20,183 nucleotides of DNA from a virus, in IMG/VR virus record IMGVR_UViG_3300027743_000102, positions 1-20,183 of that record. One strand, given 5' to 3'. The notes beneath the pieces are model-generated. The model was given only the letters and a program-made list of their open reading frames with translations, was not told the origin of the DNA and did not search any database. A program made the translations under genes and the position numbers. This document shows, in pieces, positions 2,330 to 20,183 of the stretch. Each line of letters opens with the position of its first letter. The stretch's first letter is position 1.

Positions 2330-2337
2330 GAGGGAAC

Positions 2338-3495: not shown

Positions 3496-3509
3496 CAAAG
3501 GAGATCCTA

Positions 3510-4652
3510 ATGCCTAACCTGACATTCGCGGAGGAGACTCAGCTTCAGGAAGCCTTCCGCCCTGTCCGTGGTACGTTCACGGAAGCACAGGTCGCGGAGG
3601 CTGTTGACCTGATCCGCAACGCTCAGCACATGCCAGCCCATCGGCACGAGTACATGCTGCGCGAAGCGATCACCACGTCAGATTTCCCGTACCTGTTCGG
3701 GATCGTCATCGAACACGAGATGCTGGCCCGCTACCGTTTCGCGGCAGCGGACTGGGAATCCTGGACGAAGGTATCGACCGTCCCCAACTTCAACATCCAC
3801 CAGCGCCACAGCCTCGATGGACTGACTGGACGGCTGGCTCGCGTCGGAGAGAAGGGCGAGTACCTCGTCTCGACGAAGCCTGACCATGGACGCCGGTATC
3901 TCCAGGTCTTGAAGTACGGCGCACAGTTCGACATTTCGTGGGAAGCCCTCATCAACGACGGGCTTGGCGCGTTCTCGGACATCGCGCAGCGGTACGCTGA
4001 CGCTGCTCGGAACACGGAATCGTTCCTCGCTACGTCGCTATATTGCTCTGCGGCTGGCCCGAACGTGCTACTCTACGGCGCTCCGATCGTCGCCCCTGAC
4101 GGTGCGAACGTGACGAACCTCGGCGCTCTCGCCCTCACGATTGCGAACCTCGAAGCGACGATGGAACTCATGTCGGCGCAGACGGACGCAAACGGCGACC
4201 CGCTCGGCATTCGCGGTATGCACCTCGTTGTACCGCCTAGCCTGGAGTTCACCGCTCGGCAGATCCTCACGTCCTCGACGAAGATGTGGGTCGAGCTTGG
4301 CGGTATCGGCGGCCCGCTCCCGTACCCGACGAACAACGTCATCGGGCAGATCGGCTTGCAGCTGCACGTCGACCCGTGGCTGCCGGTCATCGACGCGACG
4401 GGTAACGATGTCGGCACCTGGTACCTGTTCGCTGACACTACACAGGGCTACGCGATTGAGTATGCGCGGCTGCGCGGACACGAGGTACCGGAAATCTGCA
4501 TGAAGGCCAGCGACAAGGCGAGCCCGAGCGGTGCGCCGCTGTCTCCGTTCTCCGGCGACTTCGCAACGGATAACGTGTTCTACCGGGTGCGTGTGGTCGG
4601 AGGCGGGACGCAGCTTGACCCGCGCCTGACTTACGCGCAGGTTCACACCTAG
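3510..4652 (+). CDS. major capsid protein (HK97-like fold)
   Basis: This encodes 380 residues, starting at ATG with AAAGGAG seven bases upstream. Residues 1-50 are a helical N-arm ('TEAQVAEAVDLIRNAQ'). 'LREAITTSDFPYLFGIVIEH' (about 50-69) is typical of HK97-fold capsid proteins, followed by the E-loop region 'SWTKVSTVPNFNIHQRHSLD', 'VLKYGAQFDISWEALINDGL', an 'RYADAARNTESFLATSLY' spine helix and the P/A-domain pieces 'GIRGMHLVVPPSLEFTAR'. The C-terminal third holds 'LQLHVDPWLPV', 'TWYLFAD' and 'FYRVRVVGGG'. Position after protease, scaffold and decoration genes and before the connector genes fits. It forms the icosahedral shell. I cannot separate it further into subfamilies. Confidence 0.88.
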   Translation: MPNLTFAEETQLQEAFRPVRGTFTEAQVAEAVDLIRNAQHMPAHRHEYMLREAITTSDFPYLFGIVIEHEMLARYRFAAADWESWTKVSTVPNFNIHQRHSLDGLTGRLARVGEKGEYLVSTKPDHGRRYLQVLKYGAQFDISWEALINDGLGAFSDIAQRYADAARNTESFLATSLYCSAAGPNVLLYGAPIVAPDGANVTNLGALALTIANLEATMELMSAQTDANGDPLGIRGMHLVVPPSLEFTARQILTSSTKMWVELGGIGGPLPYPTNNVIGQIGLQLHVDPWLPVIDATGNDVGTWYLFADTTQGYAIEYARLRGHEVPEICMKASDKASPSGAPLSPFSGDFATDNVFYRVRVVGGGTQLDPRLTYAQVHT

Positions 4653-4671
4653 CCGATGCTAGGAGGTGTCC

Positions 4672-4980
4672 ATGACGCCTGACAGCGTGACGAAGTTCAG
4701 AGTTGGATCACAGGCGATCGCCGCAGCGGTGACCGCCGAGCAGTTGCCTGCCCTGGCAGCGGCCAACGGTATGGCGATTGTCGTGAAGGCGCGGGACACA
4801 AACACAGGATCTATCTGGATCGGTCACTCCAAGGCGACGGCTGAAGCTCACCACTTCAGCCTCGCCCCCGGAGCGTCCATCCATATCCTTGTTGACAATC
4901 TCAGCGACGTGTGGGTTGACGTTGAAGTGAACGGAGAAGTCGTCGAATGGATCGTGGAGGTGGGCTATGGCGCAGTTTGA
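4672..4980 (+). CDS. small beta-rich virion protein
   Basis: This encodes 102 residues. ATG 4672 is chosen because AGGAGGT sits five bases upstream; a GTG at 4666 lies inside that site. The pattern 'GMAIVVKARDTNTGSIWIG', 'HHFSLAPGASIHILVDNL' and 'VWVDVEVNGEVVEWIVEV' is a small beta-barrel type seen in many phage head operons ('vkA..NtG..yvG', 'L.pGes..l.vdnl', 'v..ngE.v.W'). A virion-associated role is likely. Its last 14 bases overlap the start of the next gene, so the two are probably made together. Confidence 0.55.
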   Translation: MTPDSVTKFRVGSQAIAAAVTAEQLPALAAANGMAIVVKARDTNTGSIWIGHSKATAEAHHFSLAPGASIHILVDNLSDVWVDVEVNGEVVEWIVEVGYGAV

Positions 4981-6268
4981 GGCAGGGCCGATCTCACCGG
5001 CACTCCAGGCGACGATCAATGCGACCAACGCGGCGCTCGGCACACGTGCCGACGCGGCCGCCGAAGGCGCAGTGACAAACACCGACACGGCGATTGCGTA
5101 CCTGAAGCAGCTTGTCATCGCAACGGATCGCAACGTCGGCGCACCGACTAGCGGCATGGCGATCACGAAGACGCTGTACGTGAGCGCGACGGGGACGGAT
5201 GCGGATGGCCTCAGTTGGGTCACCGCGTTTCACACGATCAACCAGGCGCTCGATGCGGCGTCACTTGCTGCCGGTGACTGTACCCTCATCCTCATCTCGC
5301 CTTCGTCGGTTGCTTACGACATCAACGTGACCGGCGATCCAACCTGGGCAGCGAACGTGATCCTTCAAGGCACGTACCGTACCTGGACGCGGATCGTCAA
5401 CACGCATGTCGGAGCGACTTCGATCCTCAAACTCACGGGCAAGGCTGGCGCGATCTCCCTCAACTTCGACCTCGGCGCGACGGATAACGACGGCCTCATC
5501 TTCACGGGGCCGGGATTCCTCGTCCAAGGCTGCTTCTTCACGGGCACGGCGTTGACCGGAGCGGCAACGGCCCTCGATCTCGTCGGCGCTGCCCAGATCA
5601 TCAATGGGCACGTCGGCGACTGCGAGTTCATCGGCAATCCGACGAACATGACCGCGCTGAAGCTGACCAAGATCGCCTACTCCGTCTTCATGGGCTTGAA
5701 GATCGGCAACTGCCTAGCCGGGATACAGATCACGGACGCGGAATCTGACTACAACTACTTCTCCGATATCCTGCTAATGGACAACGCGATCGGGCTCGAT
5801 GTCGACGCTGGTAACGGTCAACACTTCATCGACGTCCTCATGAACGGCAACACCGTCAACATCGACGACGAAGTTGGCGACCATATGTTCGTGCGGATAT
5901 CTGACCAGTTCCCGCTCACAACCTACCCCGACAACCTCACGGGAGTCAGCGTACCGACACACCTCAACGCAGCGACATGGGGCGTCGATACGGAACTGCG
6001 ATCGGCGGCGACAGCGACGAAGCCTTTCCAAGTCGTCAACGTCTACGCAGTGCCAAGCGTGTCGGAGATATTCCGCATACGACTGAGCGCTGACAGCGGA
6101 GCAACGTTCTTCTCGGACATCATCGTTGATGCCGTGAAGAAGACGAGCGTGCTGTCGGGGACAGGAACCGAATACGTGTTCAACCAGGGGACGCGGATCA
6201 GCGCATCGTGTCAAAGCCTTAGCGGCGGCGACACGTTGGCAGTCTGGCTGAAGATCCAGGAGATATAG
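4967..6268 (+). CDS. beta-helix protein of the head module
   Basis: This encodes 433 residues. The ATG overlaps the previous gene by 14 bases and follows GGAGGTGG. Residues 1-55 are helical with Ala-rich stretches. At residue 70 'LYVSATGTDADGLSW' and 'AFHTINQALDAAS' open a right-handed beta-helix (pectate-lyase-like, DUF1565-like entry), then 'CTLILISPSSVAYDINVTGD' and many short coils such as 'LVQGCFFTGTALTG', 'VGDCEFIGNPTNM' and 'VFMGLKIGNC'. From about residue 335 a separate beta-sandwich-like domain follows ('FQVVNVYAVPSVSEIFRIRL' to 'TLAVWLKIQEI'). No clear catalytic residues are seen. Position among capsid and connector genes suggests a head fibre or surface protein rather than a tail spike, but location is inferred. 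Confidence 0.65.
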   Translation: MAQFEAGPISPALQATINATNAALGTRADAAAEGAVTNTDTAIAYLKQLVIATDRNVGAPTSGMAITKTLYVSATGTDADGLSWVTAFHTINQALDAASLAAGDCTLILISPSSVAYDINVTGDPTWAANVILQGTYRTWTRIVNTHVGATSILKLTGKAGAISLNFDLGATDNDGLIFTGPGFLVQGCFFTGTALTGAATALDLVGAAQIINGHVGDCEFIGNPTNMTALKLTKIAYSVFMGLKIGNCLAGIQITDAESDYNYFSDILLMDNAIGLDVDAGNGQHFIDVLMNGNTVNIDDEVGDHMFVRISDQFPLTTYPDNLTGVSVPTHLNAATWGVDTELRSAATATKPFQVVNVYAVPSVSEIFRIRLSADSGATFFSDIIVDAVKKTSVLSGTGTEYVFNQGTRISASCQSLSGGDTLAVWLKIQEI

Positions 6269-6276
6269 GAGGACTG

Positions 6277-6486
6277 ATGCGCCGGAAGCCGGAAGCGATC
6301 ACGCGGGATCAGGAGTTCTACGACTCGATCCTCGTTGAATTGCGCGAGCTGCGTTTGCAGGTAACCGCGATCGCACAAGCGGTATCCGGCGCTCCGTCCA
6401 CGTTCAAGTGTGAGCAGTGCGGGCAGGGGTTCGTGAGTCAGCGCGCCCTTGCCGCACACCTCAAGGTTCACAAGGAGGGCCCGTGA
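6277..6486 (+). CDS. small coiled-coil protein with a C2H2 zinc finger
   Basis: This encodes 69 residues, starting at ATG behind AGGAGG. Residues 11-37 ('FYDSILVELRELRLQVTAIA') form a short helix resembling small phage head-operon proteins with 'L..IL.ELR.LR'. Residues 43-65 read FKCEQCGQGFVSQRALAAHL, then KVH. This is a perfect classical C2H2 finger: Cys45, Cys48, His61 and His65 with spacing C-x2-C-x12-H-x3-H, plus the expected Phe52 and Leu58 core positions. A zinc-binding role is very likely; whether it binds nucleic acid or protein is unknown. The stop codon overlaps the GTG of the next gene (GTGA). Confidence 0.75.
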   Translation: MRRKPEAITRDQEFYDSILVELRELRLQVTAIAQAVSGAPSTFKCEQCGQGFVSQRALAAHLKVHKEGP

Positions 6487-6662
6487 GCAAGTGGGGCCGG
6501 TGTCTACTTCACTCTCTGCTTGACCGGATGGAGGAAGAGGACAAGGATCGCCCCGGCACTGACGGGAATCTCGCACGGGAAGTCTACAAGGCAATCCGTG
6601 AGTACGTTGAGGAGCTAGAAGGGAAGGCGGGTGTAGAGCCATGGCGTACACATACGTCCTGA
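6483..6662 (+). CDS. hypothetical 59-residue phage protein
   Basis: GTG 6483 is chosen as the start: AAGGAGG lies a few bases upstream and the codon overlaps the preceding TGA (GTGA). The product is helical and charged, with 'LLHSLLDRMEEEDKDRPG' then 'AREVYKAIREYVEELEGKAG'. I do not recognise the family. The 3' end overlaps the adaptor gene by 22 bases. Position between the zinc-finger gene and the head-tail adaptor suggests a minor role in head completion, without direct evidence. Confidence 0.55.
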   Translation: MSKWGRCLLHSLLDRMEEEDKDRPGTDGNLAREVYKAIREYVEELEGKAGVEPWRTHTS

Positions 6663-7048
6663 CAACCGATGTCGGCAAGGTGCGGGCGTTGACCCGCGAC
6701 ACACGCGGGCCTACTACCGTCTTCTTCCAGGATGAGGAGATCGAGCTTTACAAGGAACTGAACGGCGGCGGTAGCGATACCGTCACGATCCTCAACACGG
6801 CGGCCCAACTGCTCGACGTGTGGGCAACCGATGAAGCGATGGTGACGAAGGCAGTACAGCTACTCGACGTCATGACCGACGGCCCGGCAGTCGCTCGGCA
6901 GCTACGGTATCACGCGGTGCTCTTGAGGGAGCAAGCGGAGGCGCTGGCGCTTGAGGGCGACGCTGGATTCGATACAGCGGAGATGGCGCTCGGCCCGTTC
7001 TCCATCCGCGAGCAGATCGAGAACGAAGCGTTGAAGGACACCGAATGA
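6641..7048 (+). CDS. head-tail adaptor (gp6-like connector)
   Basis: This encodes 135 residues. ATG 6641 lies inside the previous gene, so it is probably translated by coupling; no strong ribosome site is seen. The opening 'TYVLTTDVGKVRALTRDT', then 'FFQDEEIELYKELNGG', is the pattern of siphovirus head-tail connectors ('d.gkvR.li.D....v.FsDeEI'). A helical body follows ('LNTAAQLLDVWATDEAMV', 'DGPAVARQLRYHAVLLREQA'). Such adaptors bind the portal in a ring and extend it towards the tail. Gene order (adaptor, stopper, neck, terminator, tube) agrees. It ends in an ATGA overlap with the next gene. Confidence 0.72.
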   Translation: MAYTYVLTTDVGKVRALTRDTRGPTTVFFQDEEIELYKELNGGGSDTVTILNTAAQLLDVWATDEAMVTKAVQLLDVMTDGPAVARQLRYHAVLLREQAEALALEGDAGFDTAEMALGPFSIREQIENEALKDTE

Positions 7049-7410
7049 CGACGGCGATCTTCCATCCCAACATGCTGGCCCGGCTGGCCGACTTCTTCCC
7101 CGGTCTGTGTACGATCCAGGCACGGGTAGATACGCAGGATGCTGTCACGGGTGAGGTCACAAACACCTGGGCGAATCTTGCGGGCCACGTCGACCTGCCG
7201 TGTACGCATGGCCCATCGAAGGGCGATGAAGTGAAGCGCGCCGATCAGACTTACGTTGTGTCCAACTACACGCTGGCGCTGGCCGGCGACTATCCGACGA
7301 TCAACGAGACAATGCAAGCCGTGGTCGACGGGACGGCATACGAGATCCTGCTTGTGCAATGTGACAGCCACGGCATGAAGACGCGGATACTGACGCGGAA
7401 GGTGACGTGA
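7045..7410 (+). CDS. head closure / stopper-like protein
   Basis: This encodes 121 residues and starts in an ATGA overlap with the adaptor gene. It opens with a short helix ('HPNMLARLADFFP') and continues as strands: 'CTIQARVDTQDAVTGEVTNT', 'HVDLPCTHGP', 'DEVKRADQTYVVSNYTLAL' and 'YEILLVQCDSHGMKTRI'. This all-beta layout and the position between adaptor and neck protein suit the stopper (SPP1 gp16-like / DUF6093-like) proteins that close the head. The family call rests mostly on gene order and strand pattern. Confidence 0.6.
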   Translation: MTTAIFHPNMLARLADFFPGLCTIQARVDTQDAVTGEVTNTWANLAGHVDLPCTHGPSKGDEVKRADQTYVVSNYTLALAGDYPTINETMQAVVDGTAYEILLVQCDSHGMKTRILTRKVT

Positions 7411-7916
7411 TGGCTGACGCGGTGACGATGCGCCTAGAGATCAAGGGCCTGCCTGAGCTTCTCAAGAAGCTGCAACAGCTAGGCGGCGACGTCGAGAACG
7501 CTGTCGCGGCGTCACTGATGGCCTCTGCTCTGCAAGTCGCCGGTGACGCCAAGCGGCGGTCACCCGTGAAGACGGGCAACCTCATGCGCTCGATCACCGC
7601 TACCGGCGCACAGGACGGGCCGATCACCGACACGGAAGGAATGCTGCCCGAACAGAGCGTCGCCAGCCTGACGACGAACATAAAGAAGGGCGGCAAGGCA
7701 GATGCCTACATAGGGACGAACGTTTGCTACGCGAAGCGCATGGAGTTCGGCTTCAAGGGACCGGACAAGCTGGGGAGGATCTACGATCAAGGTCCACGTC
7801 CATACTTGCGCCCCGCTCTCGACGAGAACAAAGACAAGATCGAGCGGATATTCCGTAGCGGATTGCAGGCGGTAATCAAGAGCGCGGAAGAGAAAGCCGC
7901 GAAGGCAGGTGGATGA
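7410..7916 (+). CDS. HK97 gp10-like neck / tail completion protein
   Basis: This encodes 168 residues. ATG 7410 is chosen over GTG 7407 because it forms a TGATG overlap with the previous stop and follows GGAAGGTGA. 'RLEIKGLPELLKKLQQLG' and 'SALQVAGDAKRRSPVKTGNL' then 'MRSI' give the well-known HK97 gp10 signature ('A..i...Ak..sPv.TG.L..Si'). 'DAYIGTNVCYAKRMEFGF' and 'GPRPYLRPALDENKDKI' match the later conserved 'vgt...YA...EfG' and 'RPfl.PA' segments. It connects head and tail or completes the tail end. The C-terminus is a Lys/Ala/Glu helix. Confidence 0.85.
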   Translation: MADAVTMRLEIKGLPELLKKLQQLGGDVENAVAASLMASALQVAGDAKRRSPVKTGNLMRSITATGAQDGPITDTEGMLPEQSVASLTTNIKKGGKADAYIGTNVCYAKRMEFGFKGPDKLGRIYDQGPRPYLRPALDENKDKIERIFRSGLQAVIKSAEEKAAKAGG

Positions 7917-8299
7917 TGGCCGAGCCGGAAAGCGGGTTGCGAGCATGGGCGCTGGCTGACCCAACGGTTGCCGGGCTGATCGGTACGCGGTTCTATCCTA
8001 TGGTACTGCCGCAGACGCCGACGCTACCAGCCTGCACGTACTTCCGCGTCAGTCATCGCATCCCAGATGAGATCCCGTATCCGACGATTCGGATGCAGGT
8101 CACCTGTTGGGCGACTACACATAGCGGCGCACGGGCACTGGCAACGGCGCTAGAAGCCGCAGCTGGCAAGAAGAAGGGCACAAGCGCGGGCGTGGAGATC
8201 AAGTATGCGAGTGTCGCCAACGATCTCGACATGCGCGATCCAGACACCGGCTACTACATGGTCCCGGTGGATTTCAAGGTGACGTATAGGAGAGTGTGA
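7913..8299 (+). CDS. tail terminator (DUF3168-like)
   Basis: This encodes 128 residues. The start is ATG 7913 in an ATGA overlap, or ATG 7916 three bases on. 'LRAWALADPTVAGLIGTRFY', 'PQTPTLPACTYFRVS', 'TIRMQVTCWATTHSGARALA' and a closing 'GYYMVPVDFKVTYR' match the DUF3168-type tail terminator pattern ('L..dp.v..lvg.riyp...pq....P...y..is', 'riqv.cwa.....a..l'). The terminator caps the tube at its set length and joins it to the neck. It directly precedes the major tail gene, as expected. Confidence 0.78.
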   Translation: MMAEPESGLRAWALADPTVAGLIGTRFYPMVLPQTPTLPACTYFRVSHRIPDEIPYPTIRMQVTCWATTHSGARALATALEAAAGKKKGTSAGVEIKYASVANDLDMRDPDTGYYMVPVDFKVTYRRV

Positions 8300-8300
8300 A

Positions 8301-9332
8301 ATGGCACAGACCACAGTTCAACAGAGTCAGACCATCCGGTTCGGATCGGCGAAATGGGAGATGGGGGCCAACGTTGGCGCTCTCGTCGACATGGGTGCGA
8401 TCCGCAACGCAGCGTTCGAGTACACCTTTGACAAGGTTGAGGTCAAGTCCGACAACGCGGGGATCATCAAGCAGGCTGTAGCGAACGAGCGTGCCTCGCT
8501 TGGCGGTGACCTCATGGAGATCAACGCGACGAACCTCGGTAGCTTCTACAGCGGCGTCCTGACTGCCGCTTCTGTCGCTGCCGCTCCCGTCGCCGTAACG
8601 AACGAGACGCAGATTCTCACCGGTACGACCGAGAACATCCTGGCGCATCGCAACGCGGCGGGGACGGAAGTCGCTTCGATCGTCGTCACGAATGCTGCGG
8701 GCGCGGTGACCTACATCCGCGACTGCGACTACATCATCAATGTAAACGCCAACGGCTACACCACGATTGCGCGGGCCTATCCGACCGTGATCGAAGGTCC
8801 GACGGTTGTCTGCGCTGTCACGGGCACGACGAACTACTTCCTGAGCGCAGGTTCGTGGAACGTACAACCCGCCGTCGGAGATCATATCTACGTCACCGGG
8901 TTCACCGATCCCGCTAACAACGGAGTTAAGACGGTCACCGCCGTCACCACCACGCTCATCACCGTCTCCGAAGTGCTCGTCAACGAGGCGGAAGGCGATA
9001 CGGTCACGATCACCCGGGGCGGAATCCAGACCGGCGATACGACGCTTGTCGACTACAGCTACACCCCGAGCGCATCGAAGACCCTCAAGGGCGGCGGGCT
9101 CACCACCTTCACCGCTCGCGTCTGCCGGTTCACGAACACGAACGCAGCCGGGCTGACCTTCGTTATCACGATCTTCTCCGCAACGCCTGACGGTGGAATC
9201 ACGATCGACTTCCCCGCCGACGACGCGGAAGATCCAGCTCTGTGCCCTATCAAGATGGTCGGCGTTTGCGATACCACGCTGACTGCCGGAGAGCAGCTAT
9301 TCGAGTGGGAAGATAACCAGCACACGGTCTAG
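8301..9332 (+). CDS. major tail (tube) protein
   Basis: This encodes 343 residues, starting at ATG behind GGAGAG, one base after the preceding stop. 'SQTIRFGSAKWEMG', 'VDMGAIRNAAFEYTFDKVEV' and 'NAGIIKQAVANERASLGGDL' are the opening of a phage tube protein. An inner segment (about 190-240: 'VGDHIYVTGFTDPANNG' then 'VKTVTAVTTTLITVSEVL') looks like an added small beta-domain. The C-terminal part ('LTFVITIFSATPDGGITIDF', 'CPIKMVGVCDTTL') returns to the tube fold. At 343 residues it is longer than many tube proteins, consistent with an inserted domain on the tail surface. It lies between the terminator and the chaperone region. Confidence 0.82.
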   Translation: MAQTTVQQSQTIRFGSAKWEMGANVGALVDMGAIRNAAFEYTFDKVEVKSDNAGIIKQAVANERASLGGDLMEINATNLGSFYSGVLTAASVAAAPVAVTNETQILTGTTENILAHRNAAGTEVASIVVTNAAGAVTYIRDCDYIINVNANGYTTIARAYPTVIEGPTVVCAVTGTTNYFLSAGSWNVQPAVGDHIYVTGFTDPANNGVKTVTAVTTTLITVSEVLVNEAEGDTVTITRGGIQTGDTTLVDYSYTPSASKTLKGGGLTTFTARVCRFTNTNAAGLTFVITIFSATPDGGITIDFPADDAEDPALCPIKMVGVCDTTLTAGEQLFEWEDNQHTV

Positions 9333-9350
9333 CCGTGAGGAGGTACACGA

Positions 9351-10022
9351 ATGACTTGGGTTGAGGAAGCGCGGGAGATGCGCAGCGGCGGGATGACCTA
9401 TCACGCGATTGGTCTTTCCGTTGGGAAACACAGTGCAACCGTTTCCCGCGCCCTCAATCCAGAGCGGCCACACCGCAACAGACAACGGGATTGGTACATC
9501 AAAAACCGCGCGGAGATCCTTGCCAAGAGGGCAGGATACTACGCCGAGCACACGGAAGAGATCAGTGCTTACAAAGCGGTGTGGCGGGAAGAAAAACGAG
9601 AGGACAGAAAGGCGAAAGACCGAGAGTATTACGCGGCCCATAAGGATGAGCGGAAGTCCCAGATGCGGGCCTATGCCGCCGAGAACCGGGAACGCATTCG
9701 CTCATATGCTGCGCGCTACCGGAAAGAACACCCAGAAGTCGAGATCGAACACGGCGCGGAAAGGAGAATGCGTATCTCTGGGTCCAGCTCCCCACAAGAA
9801 CGAGAAGCCGCTAGGAAGTTCATCCACAAAGTGAAGACGGCGCAACGAGCAATATGCTATCTGTGCGGTAAGCGCCTATCGAGAGGAGAACGAACAATAG
9901 ACCACATCATCCCGCTTGCGAAAGGGGGCAGGCACGTTACGAATAACCTGGCTTGTGCTTGCCGTAGTTGCAACAGCAAGAAGAAGGCGAAGCTTCCGGA
10001 AGAAGTCGGAGTGTTGTTATAG
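9351..10022 (+). CDS. free-standing HNH homing endonuclease
   Basis: This encodes 223 residues, starting at ATG behind AGGAGGT. Residues 14-36 ('GMTYHAIGLSVGKHSATVSR') form a helix-turn-helix for DNA binding. Residues 45-127 are a highly charged linker with repeated 'YYA.H..E' and 'YAAENRERIRSYAARY' segments. Residues 169-208 are the HNH nuclease: Cys169 and Cys172 ('CYLCG'), Asp184-His185 ('IDHIIPLAKGG'), Asn199, then Cys204, Cys207 and Asn208 ('CRSCNSKKK'). These are the metal-binding and catalytic positions of HNH enzymes with a Cys4 zinc site. It separates the tube gene from its chaperones, a typical landing place for mobile homing genes. The stretch looks more A-rich than its neighbours. 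Confidence 0.9.
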   Translation: MTWVEEAREMRSGGMTYHAIGLSVGKHSATVSRALNPERPHRNRQRDWYIKNRAEILAKRAGYYAEHTEEISAYKAVWREEKREDRKAKDREYYAAHKDERKSQMRAYAAENRERIRSYAARYRKEHPEVEIEHGAERRMRISGSSSPQEREAARKFIHKVKTAQRAICYLCGKRLSRGERTIDHIIPLAKGGRHVTNNLACACRSCNSKKKAKLPEEVGVLL

Positions 10023-10031
10023 GAGGGAACG

Positions 10032-10430
10032 GTGGAACAGGAAAAGGCAAAGCCGATCACGATCAAAGACTTCGACGCGGTAGCCCCCGAGAAACGGCAA
10101 GCACGCATCGGCGGGCGGGTAGTGGACATCGGGTTCATCCCCGCCCGCGTGCTGTTCGACATTGCCAGATTCAAGGACGATATGGACAGCGGGAAGCTAT
10201 CGACCACCGAGCAGATTACAGCAATGGTCGAGCTTGTCGCCCGTGTGACGACGCGGAGTGACCCAGCGATCACGGCGGACTGGTTGCTTGAGAACGCCTC
10301 GATCCAGGGCCTACTCGACTTTTGCTCATGGGTGATGAATCCCGCTGCTCAGAAGGCCAAGGAGTACGAGGACAAACAGGGAAACGCGGAAACGGCCAAG
10401 TCTCCCGAATTGAACTTGGCCGAATCCTAG
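10032..10430 (+). CDS. tail assembly chaperone, short form (lambda G-like)
   Basis: This encodes 132 residues, starting at GTG 10032 with AGGAGG just upstream. It opens 'KPITIKDFDAVAP', continues 'VVDIGFIPARVLFDIARFKD', and has a helical region ('TTEQITAMVELVARV') then 'ADWLLENASIQGLLDFCSWV'. The helical layout, the size close to lambda gpG (140 residues) and the place directly before the tape measure gene identify the chaperone. It would bind the tape measure protein and recruit tube subunits. The frame stops at TAG 10428-10430 unless ribosomes shift at 10379-10385. Confidence 0.85.
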   Translation: MEQEKAKPITIKDFDAVAPEKRQARIGGRVVDIGFIPARVLFDIARFKDDMDSGKLSTTEQITAMVELVARVTTRSDPAITADWLLENASIQGLLDFCSWVMNPAAQKAKEYEDKQGNAETAKSPELNLAES

Positions 10431-10702
10431 CGAAGCTGTCGATCTCGTACCCAGGCACGACGCCGGACTACTGGCTAGACGAGCAGCCGCTAGAGAACTG
10501 GTTCATGTTCGTCGGGTACGCGGAGGAAGAGAAGATGCACGATGCGAGAGTGCTGATCGGGACGTGGGCGGCGGCGCACACGAAGAAGGGGCTGCCGCCC
10601 GAGAAACGCTTGATCGTGTCCTCCGTTGACGAGTCGCCGGATAGGGCCGCGTTCTACCGCAACCCGGAGATCCGCAAGCGCATCGTGAAGGGGCCGCTAT
10701 GA
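10032..10702 (+). CDS. tail assembly chaperone, long frameshift form (lambda GT-like)
   Basis: A programmed -1 shift at GGGAAAC (10379-10385) would join the first 118 residues of the short form to 105 residues read in the -1 frame, ending at TGA 10700-10702, about 223 in all (lambda gpGT is 279). The joined reading is continuous and sensible: 'EDKQGN' then 'RGNGQVSRIELGRILAKLS', 'YWLDEQPLENWFMFVGYAEE' and 'GLPPEKRLIVSS'. The -1 frame has no good start codon of its own with a ribosome site, supporting expression only by shifting. The stop overlaps the tape measure ATG (ATGA). Confidence 0.85.
10379..10422 (+). promoter_or_regulatory. programmed -1 ribosomal frameshift signal
   Basis: The heptamer G GGA AAC (10379-10385) sits in the correct X XXY YYZ phase of the short chaperone frame; lambda uses the near-identical GGGAAAG. 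After a 7-base spacer (10386-10392), CGGCCAAGT (10393-10401) and ACTTGGCCG (10414-10422) form a perfect 9-bp stem around a 12-base loop. I looked for a pseudoknot partner of the loop just downstream and saw none. Slip site, spacing and stem together make this a near-complete signal. Confidence 0.9.
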
Positions 10703-13700
10703 GCCAGATCGGGACGCTATCTATCGGCATCATCGGCGATATGGCGGGGCTATCAAAGGCTCTCGACAACGCCAAGAAGAGCGTCACTGACTTCGCGACG
10801 AAGACACAGGCTCTAGGGAAGCAAGTCTCGGACGCTGGCGTACAGATGACGAAGTGGGTCACTGGCCCGATCGTCGCGGCTGGCGCTGGCATCCTTGCCC
10901 TGACGACGAAGGTCGCCAACTACGCTGACGAGTTGCTTGACCTCAAGGCGCAGACGGGGCTCTCGACCGACTCGCTACAAGAGTGGCGACACGTCGCGGA
11001 GATCGCTGGCGTTAGCGCCGACACGGTTGCCAACGCGGTGATCGGCCTTACGCGCCGTCTGCCGTCGCTTGCCGAAGAGGGGTCCGTCAGCTCAGAGCAG
11101 CTTGCCAAGCTCGGACTCGCCTTCGAGGACTTAGCAGCGATGGACCCTGAAGACACGATCGACACGCTCATTGATCGCCTGTCGTCCATGGAGGATGTCA
11201 CTGAGCGCAACGCTATCGGCGCGAAGCTGTTCGGTGGGGCGTGGATTGAGATGGCCCCGATACTCGACGAGGGCGCGGAGGGCATCAAGGCACTACGTGA
11301 AGAGGCGCACGAACTCGGGATCGTCGTCAGCGAAGAGAGCCTCGATCAGATTGACGCATTCCGCAAGGAGTGGGTCAAGGTCAAGGAGCAGTTCGCTGGA
11401 CTGTTCCGTGAACTCGGCATGAAGCTGATGCCACTCATGCGGGACACGTTCATTCCCATCATCAAGAATACGATCGTTCCGATGCTGAAGACGTTCGCCG
11501 AGAAGATCGCGGCGCTCGTCACATGGTTCGGAAGCCTAAGCCCGAAGACGCAAGAGACGATCGTGAAGCTAGTCGCGCTCGCTGCCGTGGCGGGGCCGCT
11601 CGTTCTCACCGTCGGCAAGCTCATCACCGCTGTCGGAACACTATCGAAGGCGTTTATCGCGTTCGCTACGAATCCGATATTGCTCGGACTGGCTGGCGTA
11701 GCGGCTGTCATCGTCACGCTCATCTCACGCTTCAACGATGCGAAGCAGGCAACGTTAGAGCTTGAACAGTCTTACGTCACAGCGGCTTCCAACATGATCG
11801 CCGCGAGCGCTGATCTGTCCGAGGCGCTGGATGCGCTGGCCGCTGGCGTAGGCGACCTAGACTGGATCTTGAGCGAGGCTGACTTCTCCGCGTTGATCTC
11901 CAACCTCGACGCGCTCAAGGAGTCTCTGACGGGCGTTCCCGCTGACGAGATCGAGACGCGCTGGGCCGATGGCGTCAACCGGATCTTCGATGCGCTCGAA
12001 GCGGAGTACCCGAACCTACAGAAGATCCTTGAGACGTACCGACGCGGCTTCCTGGAGAAGGGCGAGGAGATGGCCGATGGGCTTATCAGTGGCTTCCGCG
12101 AGCAGGCGTCGGCCTTCGGTGACGCAGTAGACGCGACAGTCGCTGTCGGCCTGGGCTCTGCCGCCAACGCTACAGAAGGCTTCTCTGCGCTGGGGACGGA
12201 GGCCGGTGTCGCGTTCGGCGAGGGATTGTCGCTTGGACTCAACGAAACAGCGAAGACCGTAGACGAGTCGTTCTCCGCTGTCGGCGATAACGCCCTACTG
12301 AATCTACAGACGCAAGGCAGGATGCTCTCCACGGAAGCCGAGCGCATCGCCGCCGATACCAAGGCGCGGCTGGATGAACTCATGCGCCAGTCTGCCGAGA
12401 CAATGCAGCAGGCGGCGGAAGGCTACACGCCAGCGTTCGCAGACTTGCAGACGCAGGTCAATGCCGCTGTGTGGGCGTTCGAGATGGCGAAGCAGACATT
12501 CGGCGAGCAGTCGCTTGAAGCCGCCGCTGCCTTCCAAACGATGCTCACGGTGCAAGAGCGGTTGAAGAGTGTTTCGGACGATCTGTTCACGAACCTCAAG
12601 CAAGTCAACGGTCCGCTGCTCGATCTGATCGTCTACATGCAGGAATACACCGGGGAGCTAGAGGCGAACGAACAGTTCATGCAGTCGTTCATCGCGCACC
12701 AGCTACACGCGAAGGATGCACTTGCCGGGCTGGGGATCTCGGTAGAGCAGATGACCGGCCAGTGGTGGGAATACGCTGGGATCACGCGCACTGCGCTTGA
12801 GACGGTTGAGGATGAGACGAAGAAGACGACCGAAGCGACGGAAGATCTCGGCAAGGGAACCGATGTCGTTTTCGGGAAGTGGCGTCCGGTTCCGGGGATC
12901 GTCGGACAAGTAACGACGGCGCTATCCGCCATGAGCGAGAGTGCCAAGGTCACCGCCGAAGAGTTCCTCACGTCCGTCGCGGGCACCATGACGAGTGCCT
13001 TGACGGAGTTCGGCGAGAGCATCATGACGATGGCCGACACGAACAAGAAACTCGCAGAAGATCACAAGGCGACACTTGAACAGATCGACACCGACTACCA
13101 GACTGCCGCGACCTCCGCTGCTGACGCCCGCGACAAGGATCTTCAGAACCTCAAGGATCAACTCGCCGACGGCAAGATCACGCAAGAGACGTACACCCGC
13201 GAGATGCGCCAGGTGTGGGCCGACTACAACACGAAGTTCATCCAGGCAGAGAAGGACCGTGAGGGCGCGCTGGATGATGAGAAAACGGCATACGAAGAGC
13301 AGAAGGTCACGATCGGGAAGCTCGTCGGCGACCTCGTACATACCGTCCTGACTGGGATCGCCCGCACGTTGCTGGGCTACGCGGCGGAGCACTTCGCTCT
13401 TGGGCTTATCAATGCCGCGCTATTGAACTTCGTCCAGGCGGGGAAGGAGTTTGCGGCGTCTGGTATCGCAGCCTTGGCCGCCGCTGGCATGGGCATCTTC
13501 GAGTCTGCTATCCCGTTCGCCAAGGGCGGCATGGTCGCGGGCGCACTCGGGGAGCCCGTCCCGGCAATCGTCCACGGCGGCGAGATGGTTCTGACGCCCG
13601 AGCAACAGCGAGCCGGGCTGATCGACTACGAGATGATGAGCCATGCGATGGCTGACGCGCTTGAGGAAGTGCTACCCGGCAAGGATCGCCCGCTCTACCT

Positions 13701-13785
13701 CGTCACGGATGGGAAGGTATGGGCGAGGACAATGCTCCCTTTCCTCCAGGGTGAAGAGAAGCGGCTAGGACTGGTGACGCCATGA
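10699..13785 (+). CDS. tail tape measure protein
   Basis: This encodes 1028 residues, by far the longest complete gene. It starts in an ATGA overlap with the chaperone stop. It opens with 'IGDMAGLSKALDNAKKSVTD' and a hydrophobic stretch (about 53-70, 'WVTGPIVAAGAGILALTT'). Further hydrophobic segments lie at about 287-345 ('LVALAAVAGPLVLTVGKLIT', 'ILLGLAGVAAVIVTLIS') and about 879-907 ('IARTLLGYAAEHFALGLINA'). Long helical stretches fill the rest, including a charged coiled coil at about 790-870. 'FAKGGMVAGALGEPVPAIVH' and 'GGEMVLTPEQQ' (about 945-970) are typical of tape measure C-termini. The protein sets tail length and helps DNA pass into the cell. At about 1.5 angstrom per residue the tail would be about 150 nm. 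Confidence 0.93.
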   Translation: MSQIGTLSIGIIGDMAGLSKALDNAKKSVTDFATKTQALGKQVSDAGVQMTKWVTGPIVAAGAGILALTTKVANYADELLDLKAQTGLSTDSLQEWRHVAEIAGVSADTVANAVIGLTRRLPSLAEEGSVSSEQLAKLGLAFEDLAAMDPEDTIDTLIDRLSSMEDVTERNAIGAKLFGGAWIEMAPILDEGAEGIKALREEAHELGIVVSEESLDQIDAFRKEWVKVKEQFAGLFRELGMKLMPLMRDTFIPIIKNTIVPMLKTFAEKIAALVTWFGSLSPKTQETIVKLVALAAVAGPLVLTVGKLITAVGTLSKAFIAFATNPILLGLAGVAAVIVTLISRFNDAKQATLELEQSYVTAASNMIAASADLSEALDALAAGVGDLDWILSEADFSALISNLDALKESLTGVPADEIETRWADGVNRIFDALEAEYPNLQKILETYRRGFLEKGEEMADGLISGFREQASAFGDAVDATVAVGLGSAANATEGFSALGTEAGVAFGEGLSLGLNETAKTVDESFSAVGDNALLNLQTQGRMLSTEAERIAADTKARLDELMRQSAETMQQAAEGYTPAFADLQTQVNAAVWAFEMAKQTFGEQSLEAAAAFQTMLTVQERLKSVSDDLFTNLKQVNGPLLDLIVYMQEYTGELEANEQFMQSFIAHQLHAKDALAGLGISVEQMTGQWWEYAGITRTALETVEDETKKTTEATEDLGKGTDVVFGKWRPVPGIVGQVTTALSAMSESAKVTAEEFLTSVAGTMTSALTEFGESIMTMADTNKKLAEDHKATLEQIDTDYQTAATSAADARDKDLQNLKDQLADGKITQETYTREMRQVWADYNTKFIQAEKDREGALDDEKTAYEEQKVTIGKLVGDLVHTVLTGIARTLLGYAAEHFALGLINAALLNFVQAGKEFAASGIAALAAAGMGIFESAIPFAKGGMVAGALGEPVPAIVHGGEMVLTPEQQRAGLIDYEMMSHAMADALEEVLPGKDRPLYLVTDGKVWARTMLPFLQGEEKRLGLVTP

Positions 13786-16216: not shown

Positions 16217-17254
16217 ATGGGTGTCTGGGGGCGGGATCGCTACGGGGCAGAGACGGCGCTAGGCGGAGGGATCTGGGTTCCTCCGCCCGATGCGTTCGTG
16301 CAGACGCGGATCACGCTCGCCATGGCGACGGACAAGGATTCTGTCACGGTCAGCCTCCCCACTGGCTGGTATCGCGCCGTCCTCGATACGGGAGTTCTCT
16401 ACGACTTCGCGGAGGAAATGCCGTGGGCGCTGCACGGCGGGGCGTACAACGACGTGAACAAGGCAACGGTCTACGCGGTCGCGGCAGACGATTCACAGGA
16501 GTACGTGGGTGAGATTGAGATCCTACGCCAATCTGAGCGTGTCCTCTTTGAGCGGTACGGATTCGTCCAGCAGTATGGTTACGTCCTGATCGGGCGTTGC
16601 TCGTTCGAGCTATCCGATCCTGGGACGACAAGCTACTCGACGACGAGTATGGCCGAACTCACGGCGAGTGAACAGGCGGCGATCCGCGATCTCTTTCCTA
16701 GCATCACAAAAGCACAGGCGACGCCAGATCAGTCGCCATCTGTGGCGCTTGAGAACGCCATCGCGGTTCAGGAAGTTCTCGCGCCGTACCTCCTCAACAA
16801 CGGACCCTCTTCGATCTGGAGCGGATCGCACACGCCGTCTGAATGCTTCGACCTTGTGATGAATGAAGACGCGCCCGTGATGTGCGGAATGGCGCAGCTT
16901 CTCTACGCCTATCTCGCCATCTCGACCCGCAACTTCACAGCGGCGGATGTGCATAAGACGAATCTGCGCCGCTATGCGGACATCCCGGGGATCACGATGA
17001 ACAGCCATGCCGTGATCGCTCTAGACGCCTCGGATGGTTGGTTCATGTTCGATCCGTTCGCGGGCGTGTACTGCACGAACGGAGCGAACCTACTCAGCGC
17101 GGACGAGATCAGATCCGCCGACAAGGACGACGTGACGGTGAACGCGATCGGAGACGCCGCCTGGGAACCGGACTTCGGGCCTGCCCCCTACGACTACAAC
17201 TACTTCTGCCACTTCAACTACATCGAGCACCTCACGTTGACGGGAGTGGGATAG
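16217..17254 (+). CDS. tail protein with a transglutaminase-like domain
   Basis: This encodes 345 residues; ATG follows AGGAGG. It opens with 'MGVWGRDRYG', like the next protein. Residues 25-140 are beta-rich and not recognised. Residues about 175-290 look like a transglutaminase-like (papain-fold) domain: a helix beginning with Cys223 ('PVMCGMAQLLYAYL'), 'NLRRYADIPGITMNSHAVIA' with His264, then 'WFMFDPFAGVY' with Asp279. This order and spacing of Cys, His and Asp, with the Asp in a 'W..FDP' turn, is the family's catalytic layout. Members are proteases, amidases or cross-linking enzymes. In a tail-tip operon it could cut or cross-link cell-wall or virion peptides; the substrate is unknown. 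It ends one base before the next GTG. Confidence 0.7.
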   Translation: MGVWGRDRYGAETALGGGIWVPPPDAFVQTRITLAMATDKDSVTVSLPTGWYRAVLDTGVLYDFAEEMPWALHGGAYNDVNKATVYAVAADDSQEYVGEIEILRQSERVLFERYGFVQQYGYVLIGRCSFELSDPGTTSYSTTSMAELTASEQAAIRDLFPSITKAQATPDQSPSVALENAIAVQEVLAPYLLNNGPSSIWSGSHTPSECFDLVMNEDAPVMCGMAQLLYAYLAISTRNFTAADVHKTNLRRYADIPGITMNSHAVIALDASDGWFMFDPFAGVYCTNGANLLSADEIRSADKDDVTVNAIGDAAWEPDFGPAPYDYNYFCHFNYIEHLTLTGVG

Positions 17255-17255
17255 C

Positions 17256-20183
17256 GTGTTCGGACACAACCGCTACGGGACAACGAGGTATGGATCGAAA
17301 GGACCCGCGCTTGGCGTCACCTATACGAAGACCGTAGCGACGGCGACCGTAGCGACTGTCGGTTCGGTGCCCCGCGAAGCTGGCAAGCACGTCACCGGAA
17401 CCGTCCAGGCGGTGGGGACGTCTATCAGGCCGGTCAAGGTCACGCGAGCCATTAGCGGGGCCGTAGGATCGATCGGTGCCGTAGCGCGGGCGACTTCCAA
17501 GCATGTCGCGGCGGCGACAGTCGCGACGGTAGCAACGGTTCCTAGCAGATTCTATCGCTGGATCAAGGTAGTCGCTACGGCTACGGTAGAAGCTGTTGGC
17601 ACTGTCACCCGCAAGACCGGCCAACACGTAACCGCCATCGTCTCGACGGTCGCATCAATCACGCCGCGCAACATCAAGCGGGCGATTTCGGCGACGGTCG
17701 ACACGCTGGGGACGGTTGCTCGATCCACGGCCAAGCACGTCGCCGCCGCCACGGTTTCCACGGTCGGCTCGGTACTCCGTGGGATGGTATGGCACAAGCT
17801 AGTCGCCACGGCGGTTGTCTCGACAGTGGGCACGGTCAAGCGGAAGACGGGCAAGCACGTCACGGGCACGGCTACCGCCATCGGGCTCAGCATCCGCCCG
17901 ATCACCGTAGGCAAGCACGTTACGGGAACTGTCGCCACAGTCGGCACGATCCGCCCGGTCAACATCTGGCGCACGATCATGGCGGCAGTCGGCACGGTCG
18001 GCGTCGTTCTCCAGAAGACAAGCAAGCACGTCGCCACGGCTACCGTTTCGACCGTTGCCACGATCCTGTCGACCGCTGTCCAAGTTGTCACAGGCGGCGT
18101 GTCCACTCTCGCCAGCGTCTCGCGTAAGACCTTCCGACACGTCACCGCCGTCGTGTCCACCGTCGCTACCGTCTCCGACTTCCTCTACGACATCGTCTAC
18201 GCCATGAATCAGACCATCCGCCACATCTACGGAAAAGTCCGCATCACCTACACGGACCCGTACTTCTCCGCAGGCGTGGCGACTTCCGCCGATGCCGTTG
18301 GCGACTACACCTACACGGATCAGACCGTTGACAACGTGACAACCGAGACGTACAAGTGGTTTTCGCTGCACCGCAACATACTCGACGGTACCTTCCATCC
18401 GCTGCCCGGCGATCAGTCGATCTCGGTTGGATGGTGGGGCACACAGCTATCGGACTTCGTGACGCACGCCTTCGTGCCGACCTATCCTAAGCTCACGCTG
18501 ACGCACGCGGCCCGTACCGTCTCCGACTTGCTCGTTGTCGGCGACGACAAGCTCGACGAGTACCCCGTCGACTTCACGATCAAGCTCTACAACGCCTCGA
18601 ACGTGCTACAGCACACCGAGACGGTTGTCGGCAACGCGTACTACTACTACTCGACGCCGCTCTCGCCAGCGCATACCGGAATTGCCAAGCAGGTGCTAGA
18701 GATCACGAAGTGGAGTCGCGGGGATTCCGTCGTCAAGATCGCACAGTTCTTCACGACGCTTGAAGAGACGTACGAGAGCGAAGACGGCGAACTCGTTGAC
18801 ATCAACGTCACTGAGCAACGCGAGTTCACGGGGACCACCATCCCGCAAGGCAACCTCGCCAACTCGGAGATTCGTGTCCGTCTCAACAACATCGACGGTA
18901 CGTTCGACGCAGGCAACACGGCGAGCCGCTTGAATGGCCTGCTGTTGAACAACCGCGCGATCACCGCCTGGCTCGGCGTCGACCTTATCCCGTCCGGTGT
19001 GCGGCGCTGGTATCCGCTTGGGACGTTCTACTCACGCGATTGGTCCGCCCCGGATTCGGAGATCTGGGCCGAGGTAAGCGGTCAGGACATGCTCGCCCGC
19101 TTGCAGTCGACCACGTTCTCTACGTCCACCGTCTACGAATCGAAGACGCTGGAAGAGCTTGCCATCGTCATCATGACCGACGCGGGCCTGACTTCGGCGG
19201 ACTGGGACATTGACGCGGCACTCGCTGCGATCACCGTACCCTACGCCTGGTTCGATGCTGTCTCGCATCGTGAGTGCCTGCGCAAGATTGCCGCCGCGTG
19301 CATGGGCCAGTGCTACTGCAACCGTGACGGCAAGATCGTCCTTGAGGTCTACTCCGCGCCGAGTCTCAATCCGTTCGAGTACACGTCGGGTAACGTGTTC
19401 GACATCGACCATCCGCTTCAGTGGTCGCAGATGGTGAACTACGTGCAGGCGCGAGCGACACCGCGTGAACTAAGCGTCGAACAGGATATCGTTACGGACG
19501 TTGAAGTCTTCACGGTCCCCGCCCTGAGCAGCGTGACGAAGCTCCACTACTACATCTCGTCACCGTGCAAGGACGTTACCGCTCCGACAATCGTTGGCGG
19601 GGCAGACATCACCGTGAGCGCGTACACCGCCTACGCTTGGGGAATCTCAGTGACCTACGCGAATGCTGGCGTCGGTGATGAGACGGTGACGAGCACGACG
19701 GTACGCGGCAAGGTGCTAGAAGAGGTAAGCGGGAAACTCGTGACGGCTCAGGACGCCGCCTCGATCGCGCAGAATGGCAAGCAGACGCTCTCGGAAACGA
19801 TCACCTCAGAGTTCTGGCAGGATGAGACGCGGGCGCAGGAAGTGGCCGACGGGATCTTGACTACCTACCGCAACCCGCGCCGCGACATCGTGATGCGGGC
19901 ACGCGGCAACATCGCGCAACTGCTCGGCGATCGCGTCAAGTGCCCCGACTCGTTGACAGCGGGGACGACGGCGCACTTCGGCATTGTCGGACAGGACATC
20001 TCATACGACGGCGGACTAGAGATCGTCGTGACCGCGCAACGGCTGGGGGTAATGACCTCGAAGACGGTCACGGCGACGGTCGGGACGGTAGCAACGAGAT
20101 CGTGGAAGCCCGTAGCGAAGAAGGGACTAGCGGTTGGAACTGTCGCCACGGTGGCTACCGTCGCCCGCAAGGCAACGCACAAG
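17256..20183 (+). CDS. giant tail hub protein with flanking repeats (partial, 3' end missing)
   Basis: An open frame of 976 codons runs from GTG 17256 off the window end. An in-frame stop at 17238-17240 makes this GTG the first possible start. It begins 'VFGHNRYGTTRYGSKG'. Residues 25-306 are a repeat tract. Residues about 326-510 hold strand-rich domains, including 'EYPVDFTIKLYNASNVLQHT' and 'ITKWSRGDSVVKIAQFF', resembling a galactose-binding (F5/8-like) domain. Residues about 515-930 look like a tail hub: 'GNLANSEIRVRLNNIDGTFD', 'RAITAWLGVDL', 'WYPLGTFYSRDWSAP', 'TLEELAIVIMTDAGL', 'VPYAWFDAVSHRECLRKIAA' and 'CYCNRDGKIVLEVY'. The repeats resume at residue 936. It probably forms the tail tip around the tape measure end. 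Confidence 0.8.
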   Translation, partial: MFGHNRYGTTRYGSKGPALGVTYTKTVATATVATVGSVPREAGKHVTGTVQAVGTSIRPVKVTRAISGAVGSIGAVARATSKHVAAATVATVATVPSRFYRWIKVVATATVEAVGTVTRKTGQHVTAIVSTVASITPRNIKRAISATVDTLGTVARSTAKHVAAATVSTVGSVLRGMVWHKLVATAVVSTVGTVKRKTGKHVTGTATAIGLSIRPITVGKHVTGTVATVGTIRPVNIWRTIMAAVGTVGVVLQKTSKHVATATVSTVATILSTAVQVVTGGVSTLASVSRKTFRHVTAVVSTVATVSDFLYDIVYAMNQTIRHIYGKVRITYTDPYFSAGVATSADAVGDYTYTDQTVDNVTTETYKWFSLHRNILDGTFHPLPGDQSISVGWWGTQLSDFVTHAFVPTYPKLTLTHAARTVSDLLVVGDDKLDEYPVDFTIKLYNASNVLQHTETVVGNAYYYYSTPLSPAHTGIAKQVLEITKWSRGDSVVKIAQFFTTLEETYESEDGELVDINVTEQREFTGTTIPQGNLANSEIRVRLNNIDGTFDAGNTASRLNGLLLNNRAITAWLGVDLIPSGVRRWYPLGTFYSRDWSAPDSEIWAEVSGQDMLARLQSTTFSTSTVYESKTLEELAIVIMTDAGLTSADWDIDAALAAITVPYAWFDAVSHRECLRKIAAACMGQCYCNRDGKIVLEVYSAPSLNPFEYTSGNVFDIDHPLQWSQMVNYVQARATPRELSVEQDIVTDVEVFTVPALSSVTKLHYYISSPCKDVTAPTIVGGADITVSAYTAYAWGISVTYANAGVGDETVTSTTVRGKVLEEVSGKLVTAQDAASIAQNGKQTLSETITSEFWQDETRAQEVADGILTTYRNPRRDIVMRARGNIAQLLGDRVKCPDSLTAGTTAHFGIVGQDISYDGGLEIVVTAQRLGVMTSKTVTATVGTVATRSWKPVAKKGLAVGTVATVATVARKATHK
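17328..18179 (+). repeat. hierarchical coding repeat (about 19-residue units in 4-unit super-repeats)
   Basis: Fifteen imperfect units of 18-22 residues follow the consensus K-H-V-x-[AG]-T-V-[AS]-T-V-G-[TS]-V-x-R-K-T-G. They group into super-repeats starting at 17385, 17622 and 17913 (residues 44, 123 and 220). Each runs an 'HVT' unit, an 'R-[AT]-I-[SM]' unit, a 'KHVA' unit and a fourth unit of which two have the form 'VATATV...GTVxRKTG'. An extra 'HVT' unit stands at residue 200 and a last one at residue 294. Synonymous codons differ widely between copies, so the repeats are kept at protein level and are not recent DNA duplications. Confidence 0.85.
20061..20183 (+). repeat. second tract of the same repeat, cut by the window end
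   Basis: After the hub domain the frame returns to the repeat: 'KTVTATVGTVATRSWKPVAK' and then 'VGTVATVATVARKATHK', closely matching the first N-terminal unit ('TKTVATATVATVGSV'). At least two units are visible and the tract continues past the window. Confidence 0.8.

Follow-up and report, generated by a model that had tools for sequence, protein, structure and literature searches.

Tail Hubs and Their Added Domains

Hubs of phage tails that are decorated with inserted or C-terminal modules are already known, as the available sections of two reports describe. The hub part of lambda gpJ and T5 pb3 does not lie at the N-terminus, since it spans about residues 185–520 and 386–754, respectively, and carbohydrate-binding modules (CBMs) occur within the gp27-like domains of so-called "evolved Tal" proteins (PMC7291167). 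Fibronectin type III (FNIII) domains have also been described, both inserted in the hub and following it (PMC10721106). The hub protein considered here is encoded at the end of IMG/VR virus record IMGVR_UViG_3300027743_000102, a whole linear record of 20,183 bases (hereafter, the window) which ends inside the hub gene. In the original prediction, made from this DNA alone, two tracts of the same repeat were proposed to flank a galactose-binding-like domain and a hub, and this was regarded as unusual because tail hubs would normally start at the N-terminus. Such a norm has known exceptions in gpJ and pb3, at the residues given above.

The repeat of the window protein is confined to one hub clade, and it is present on both sides of the hub in every member of which both sides are visible. 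Because the window ends inside the gene, the C-terminal side was studied in relatives. The occurrence of the same repeat on both hub sides, matched within each virus, suggests that two matching stalks have been built onto an ordinary tail hub.

The Same Repeat before and after the Hub

The open reading frame (ORF) of the hub protein (17256..20183, + strand) starts with GTG and runs for 976 amino acids up to the contig end; the relatives share its start place and its N-terminal motif. Repeat units were counted with an ungapped profile of 15 columns, at a score cut of 8. Fifteen units, spaced by 18–22 residues, precede the hub in the window protein (residues 26–308, 17331..18179, + strand), the last of them at residues 294–308. 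None lies within the hub and two follow it, at residues 936–950 (KTVTATVGTVATRSW, 20061..20105, + strand) and 957–971 (GLAVGTVATVATVAR, 20124..20168, + strand), the contig ending 15 bases further. It had been predicted that the repeat tract stops at residue 306 and resumes at residue 936, and both boundaries were right to within 2 residues (308 and 936 in the profile scan). The unit is 18–19 residues long in the window, and a spacing of 18 or 19 is found in 84 of the 112 gaps between the 130 units of nine proteins. Over these 130 units, the odd columns are conserved, following K-x-[VIL]-x-[AG]-x-V-x-[VT]-x-[GA]-x-[VI]-x-R, and the even ones are variable, polar, and rich in Ser, Thr, and Asn. 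As read from the sequence columns, this pattern is that of one long beta-strand per unit. When the hubs of all 16 proteins were scanned together, no unit was found at the score cut.

A chance run of Val and Thr could in principle mimic such a repeat. The score of a Smith–Waterman alignment of the window C tract with its own N tract was indeed reached by 9 of 500 shuffles, a weak test, as would suit this explanation. In a blind test, the C tracts were scored with a profile to which only N units of proteins other than the one under test had contributed, with 2000 shuffles. The two C units of the window score 19.6 and 16.1, against a best value of 3.2 in its hub, and 19.6 was reached in 1 of the 2000 C-tract shuffles. 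All seven proteins so analysed gave a best C-tract score of 17.3 to 25.1, with hubs at 3.7 or below and 0 or 1 of 2000 shuffles as good. Single C units failed this test in L011 (two of five, scoring 0.7 and 1.9) and L012 (one, 1.3), two of the relatives, which are designated here by L numbers. Smith–Waterman comparison of N and C tracts in five relatives gave scores that 0 of 500 shuffles reached in each. Lastly, the outcome that was to refute the original prediction, relatives with only chance Val/Thr-rich strands, is contradicted by the post-hub units, 1 to 5 each, of all 10 carriers including the window. The relatives refute the chance run, to which a negligible probability is given.

Distribution and Probable History of the Repeat

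Six scans of virus contigs yielded 17 other hub proteins, hence 18 with the window, and two scans of bacterial and archaeal genomes gave no relative. In a phage collection, the whole protein had no match at 1e-5; at a loose limit, matches of about 22–26% covered only part of the hub (20 of 63 records listed). Two repeat tracts had no match in this collection.

The repeat is carried by 10 of the 18 hub proteins, all of which have copies after the hub, and N units are present in each of the nine carriers whose N side is on the contig. The numbers of N and C units are 15 + 2 in the window, the C side of which is cut by the contig end, 19 + 3 in L002, 13 + 1 in L003, 10 + 5 in L010, 14 + 5 in L011, and 13 + 3 in L026. 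L006 has 11 + 2 with the refined profile (12 N units with the first one), L027 has 7 + 2 with its N side cut by the contig end, and L041 has 17 + 1 at the cut of 8, its second C unit scoring 6.6. Five C units are seen in L012, the N side of which is off the contig. The start of L027 and positions 2725–3684 of L032 are the two ends of one virus record, seemingly two parts of its hub gene. The last 93 bases of this record are an exact copy of an inner stretch, and it is probably a circular genome broken by the assembler inside the repeats.

A comparison with relatives that lack the repeat had been advised in the original prediction. There are eight of them (L013, L014, L015, L018, L019, L023, L030, and L043); they have no unit at all, and every one of these proteins ends at the hub. 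By eye, a different repeat-like stretch precedes the hub in six of the eight, with none in L014 and L043. In L013 and L015, it is another tandem repeat, of about "KTDTLLPKVSE" ("TDTLLPKV" type), preceded by a second galactose-binding-like region that matches Laminin_G_3.

It had been envisaged that a longer repeat protein acquired the hub by insertion, and the presence of one repeat on both hub sides is what such an origin would leave behind. The relatives speak against it, since the hub exists without the repeat in 8 of the 18 proteins and the carriers group together. In a tree of 16 hubs, which leaves out the later found L041 and L043 and has no fixed root, the nine carriers then known fall into a single clade (100/100), the stem of which measures 0.92 changes per column. 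Moreover, when one N tract was used to search 16 virus records, it matched only the hub gene, or the presumed other end of this gene in the L027 record. Insertion of the hub into a pre-existing repeat protein is thus disfavoured and looks very improbable. Since many hubs lack the repeat and its carriers are one clade, the repeats look like a later addition to a pre-existing hub, which is probably the simplest history, one loss elsewhere being formally possible with the root unfixed.

Matching Dialects of the N and C Tracts

The unit differs among viruses, with TVxTVGTV in the window, TVGTSGSV in L003, NVTVAASV in L006, and TVNxSGTV in L010 and L011. Within each virus, the dialect of the N tract is also that of the C tract. 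When measured by the mean identity of C units to N units, the own pairing was the best of 40,320 for eight proteins and the best of 362,880 for nine, in permutations that treat the viruses as independent and ignore kinship. The nine-protein test leaves out L012, for lack of its N side, and admits the second C unit of L041 at a cut of 6. Dialects are shared within two clusters, window/L002/L003 and L010/L011/L026, and a higher off-diagonal value is found in two of the nine rows, for L002 with L003 and for L011 with L026. Composition alone already tells the viruses apart (3 of 40,320), a further point that a chance Val/Thr run would account for. A position-specific excess is nevertheless left when composition is subtracted (2 of 40,320), which such a run would not give, and own then exceeds cross in 27 of the 28 virus pairs, the exception being L011–L026. 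Plain divergence since a common ancestor would give own and cross values that are about equal, and some lineage-specific coupling of the two tracts is therefore needed.

Recent gene conversion between the tracts was considered and rejected: N–C codon identity at identical residues is within 1.2 standard deviations of synonymous shuffles in 8 of 8 genes. The best-matching N–C stretches that were inspected are also devoid of a codon excess, for example with 9 of 20 codons in L026. Pairs of N units exceed synonymous shuffles in L026 (1/300) and L011 (8/300). Recent duplication within N tracts is seen in one L026 pair, which shares 17 of 24 codons, and in L032, where the copies found by a DNA repeat search are 82–100% alike. 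The same search found one weak family of 45 nucleotides in the window gene, with copies 64–76% alike, and no family in L002, L011, or L027; TRF detected no DNA-level tandem repeat in the window. The penultimate N unit is the best match for the second C unit of L010 and L011 and for the first C unit of L026 and L027.

The Hub and Its Nested Galactose-Binding-Like Domain

Between the two tracts, the hub region extends over about residues 314–930 (18195..20045, + strand) and is discontinuous because of a nested domain. In the PHROGs database, phrog_13879, a tail-hub-sized family of unknown function, matches residues 316–904 (E 1.5e-39), and phrog_10359, a minor tail protein family, matches residues 512–688 (E 2.3e-11); the repeats are uncovered. 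Both families were matched by all 10 hub proteins scanned. An AlphaFold2 model of the window protein has a mean predicted local distance difference test score (pLDDT) of 54, with 70–94 across much of residues 540–870. Fold comparison with VIA of residues 322–882 and similar ranges gave the hub of phage Milano (8fqc_C1) with Z 14.6 and a root-mean-square deviation (rmsd) of 4.5 over 253 residues, followed by the Mu hub (Z 13.4), VgrG1 (Z 13.0), and a long list of hubs. Much the same hub list was obtained from a separate model of L010, with a top Z of 14.9. A sequence search of solved structures with the hub profile returned one chance match (E 0.21).

The nested domain (residues 336–487, 18261..18716, + strand) matches CBM32-6 of CpGH89 in VIA (Z 9.3, rmsd 3.0, 90 residues), and its counterpart in the L010 model matches CBM32-5 (Z 9.0); its residues 347–408 are modelled with low pLDDT. 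It is located between the first hub strand (residues 324–333) and the remaining hub. Fold comparison thus supports both domains that had been predicted between the tracts, and the central region is, as far as the models tell, a hub of the gp27/VgrG type, the first strand of which is followed by an inserted CBM32-like domain.

The gene order is in keeping with this assignment. A tape measure protein, recognized by phrog_8125 and many other tape-measure families, is encoded at 10699..13785 (+ strand), and the hub gene start at 17256 comes four main ORFs later, which places the hub gene in the tail module. As the best explanation of these matches, the ORF product appears to be the tail-tip hub protein of a long-tailed virus.

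Cap Peptide and Head Domains

A short peptide of the YGxxRYGxxRYG type (YGxNRYGxxRYG-like) opens seven of the eight visible N-termini of carriers, namely those of the window (FGHNRYGTTRYG, residues 2–13, 17259..17294, + strand), L002, L006, L010, L026, L041, and L027, the last being counted on the assumption that the gene start in L032 belongs to the same gene. L003 has other domains in its place. In L041 the peptide recurs after the hub, at residues 1018 and 1079, and the second of these copies is the C-terminus. The three L041 copies share 10–12 of 13 residues and only 2–7 codons. Nine occurrences of the motif were found in the 20 sequences searched, all in the hub gene.

The C tract is followed by a head domain of one family in L002, L006, L010, and L011, by a head of a second, unrelated family in L012 and L027, and by no head in L003, L026, and L041. 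In L011, what seems to be the end of a family-1 head also precedes the N tract, and its match to the C head of this protein was equalled by 1 of 500 shuffles.

Proposed Arrangement of the Two Stalks

Taken together, the data are probably best read as a trimeric hub that has a beta-stalk at either end of the chain and carries swappable heads, the fold and function of the repeats being putative. Like the hubs related to it, this one would assemble into a trimeric ring at the end of the tail. The N tract, which has 7 to 19 units in carriers, would be a stiff beta-stalk leaving from one chain end of the hub, and the shorter C tract, of 1 to 5 units in the relatives, a stiff beta-stalk leaving from the other. 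The C stalk would end in an interchangeable head domain, in a cap, or in nothing, the YG-RYG-RYG peptide presumably capping stalk ends that are free. During opening of the hub, the host surface may be held by the inserted CBM together with the heads. Both stalks would retain a common dialect because their structural job is shared, with the same oligomer, the same partner, or the same surface, and the match could be kept by selection, or else result from old copying within the gene of which the silent-site traces are gone.

Several observations weigh against this arrangement. The repeat tracts are devoid of a confident model, with pLDDT below 50 over both tracts in the window and L010 models; their fold is unpredicted, and the column pattern, the heads, and the cap are thus the basis of the term "stalk". 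Neither the repeat nor the heads are covered by a Pfam or NCBIfam family. Pfam gave only Holin_SPP1 on the window ORF (13.7 bits for a cut-off of 27) and no family at E 0.01 in any of the 10 hub proteins; NCBIfam gave none in the three carriers submitted, and neither head family was matched by Pfam. The C-terminus of the window protein itself is missing from the record. Finally, the N tract of the window has 32 Lys + Arg for 3 Asp + Glu, a strong basic charge that a plain stalk does not need. Tailspike matches obtained with VIA at about residues 76–300 of the window model lie where pLDDT is below 50 and were left unused.

Two other explanations were considered. According to the first, the N and C tracts would fold, within a chain or between adjacent chains, into one composite beta-structure against or around the hub, and the dialects would match because the strands touch. 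The own N–C pairing, best of 362,880 without copying at the DNA level, is what selected contacts would produce, and basic tracts could face an acidic hub, the hub of the window having 44 Lys + Arg for 73 Asp + Glu. Against such a structure, the numbers of N and C units are far apart and show no common trend (19:3, 14:5, 13:1, 11:2, 10:5). Nor is the acidity of the hub a fit to the tracts, since hubs that lack the repeat have −4.7 to −5.5 per 100 residues, similar to the −4.3 to −7.9 of the others. A role of the hub as an acidic seat for basic tracts was rejected, hubs without the repeat being about equally acidic. A composite beta-structure is rated as unlikely. That the repeats might encase the hub, as also envisaged in the original prediction, is a hypothetical arrangement: in the sequence they lie on either side of it, and the model gives them a pLDDT under 50.

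The second explanation sees the tracts as polyanion-binding arms, in which ladders of Lys (column 1) and Arg (column 15) would bind an acidic surface polymer or DNA. Lys, Arg, or His indeed occupies column 1 in 78% and column 15 in 72% of the 130 units, and the N tracts have 19–41 Lys + Arg for 2–6 Asp + Glu in 8 of 8 proteins. Yet no binding family was matched, and the C tracts are far less basic in L012, L010, and L026, with Lys + Arg:Asp + Glu of 10:6, 9:4, and 5:5. Arms of this kind have, like the composite structure, only a small probability, and the strong basic charge of the window N tract leaves room for a binding role.

With stalks on both ends of the hub, the matched dialects would reflect a shared structural job. 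A bolder version of this proposal is that the repeat and the YG-RYG-RYG cap form a stalk module placeable at either hub end, the two stalks co-evolving across a hub of 600 residues through co-assembly, in the same trimer or on a shared surface. This would amount to concerted evolution at the protein level, without detectable DNA copying, and is put forward as a tentative idea that is more doubtful than the arrangement itself.

Neighbouring Genes and Possible Host

Several capsid and head–tail genes at positions 1289–10699 of the window match those of Methanoculleus virus L4768, in the same order, with 34–43% identity over part or most of their length. The capsid match (38.7%, 218 bits) is well above the next named one. 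On the strength of these matches, the virus from which the window derives may have a methanogenic archaeon as its host. No match to the hub profile was present in the 28 kb analysed of L4768, the closest named virus by capsid.

The ORF just upstream of the hub gene (16217–17254) shows a Cys...His...Asp arrangement (CGMAQLLYAYL, HAVIALDASDGWFMFDP), which we take to resemble transglutaminase-like peptidases; no Pfam, NCBIfam, or solved-structure match supports this likeness. An HNH endonuclease gene (PF14279, E 1.8e-16) lies at 9351–10022, within the tail module. In L002, an HNH homing endonuclease-like gene (7147–7659), identified by eye, stands directly before the hub gene, 2 bases from the hub start. 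A gene downstream of the hub in L002, L003, and L006 encodes, by eye, three short "KYVKVGGAWKPV"-type repeats and then a propeller-like protein.

Comparison with Known Systems

A hub clade with a private repeat at both ends, matched within each virus and differing between viruses, offers a natural experiment on the co-evolution of stalk and hub. The relatives gathered here are sufficient for the construction of a profile of this repeat, which is absent from Pfam and NCBIfam.

Fibre-shaft consensus sequences consist of short repeats in which hydrophobic positions alternate with others and one column is Gly/Ala. The window repeat is similar in these three respects to the trimeric fibre shafts of the triple beta-spiral and triple-stranded beta-helix types. 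It differs from them by its unit of 18–19 residues and by strong Lys/Arg positions at both strand ends, and no sequence or fold match to them was obtained. A BACON domain is a whole Ig-like domain, whereas the unit of the window is about one strand long. In the available part of their description, the BACON tandem repeats of crAss-like phages are likewise tail-associated and grow by duplication (PMC6949934).

With gp27/VgrG/Tal-type hubs (Milano 8fqc, Mu 9ki1/1wru, VgrG1, T5 pb3, and lambda gpJ), the window protein shares the central fold over residues 318–930, as well as a gene position downstream of the tape measure. Lambda gpJ and T5 pb3 likewise carry additional domains in front of, within, or behind the hub scaffold, according to the accessible sections of the same two reports (PMC10721106, PMC7291167). 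The post-hub modules described there are FNIII domains or fibres, and one repeat on both sides is not among them; nor did the accessible parts of the open-licence literature contain a description of this repeat, or of any one repeat on both hub sides. In the evolved Tal hubs, as in the window protein, a CBM-type domain lies inside the gp27-like hub (PMC7291167, as far as available). Compared with what is described of these, the window protein has a single CBM32-like domain, placed right after the first hub strand, together with repeat tracts at both ends.

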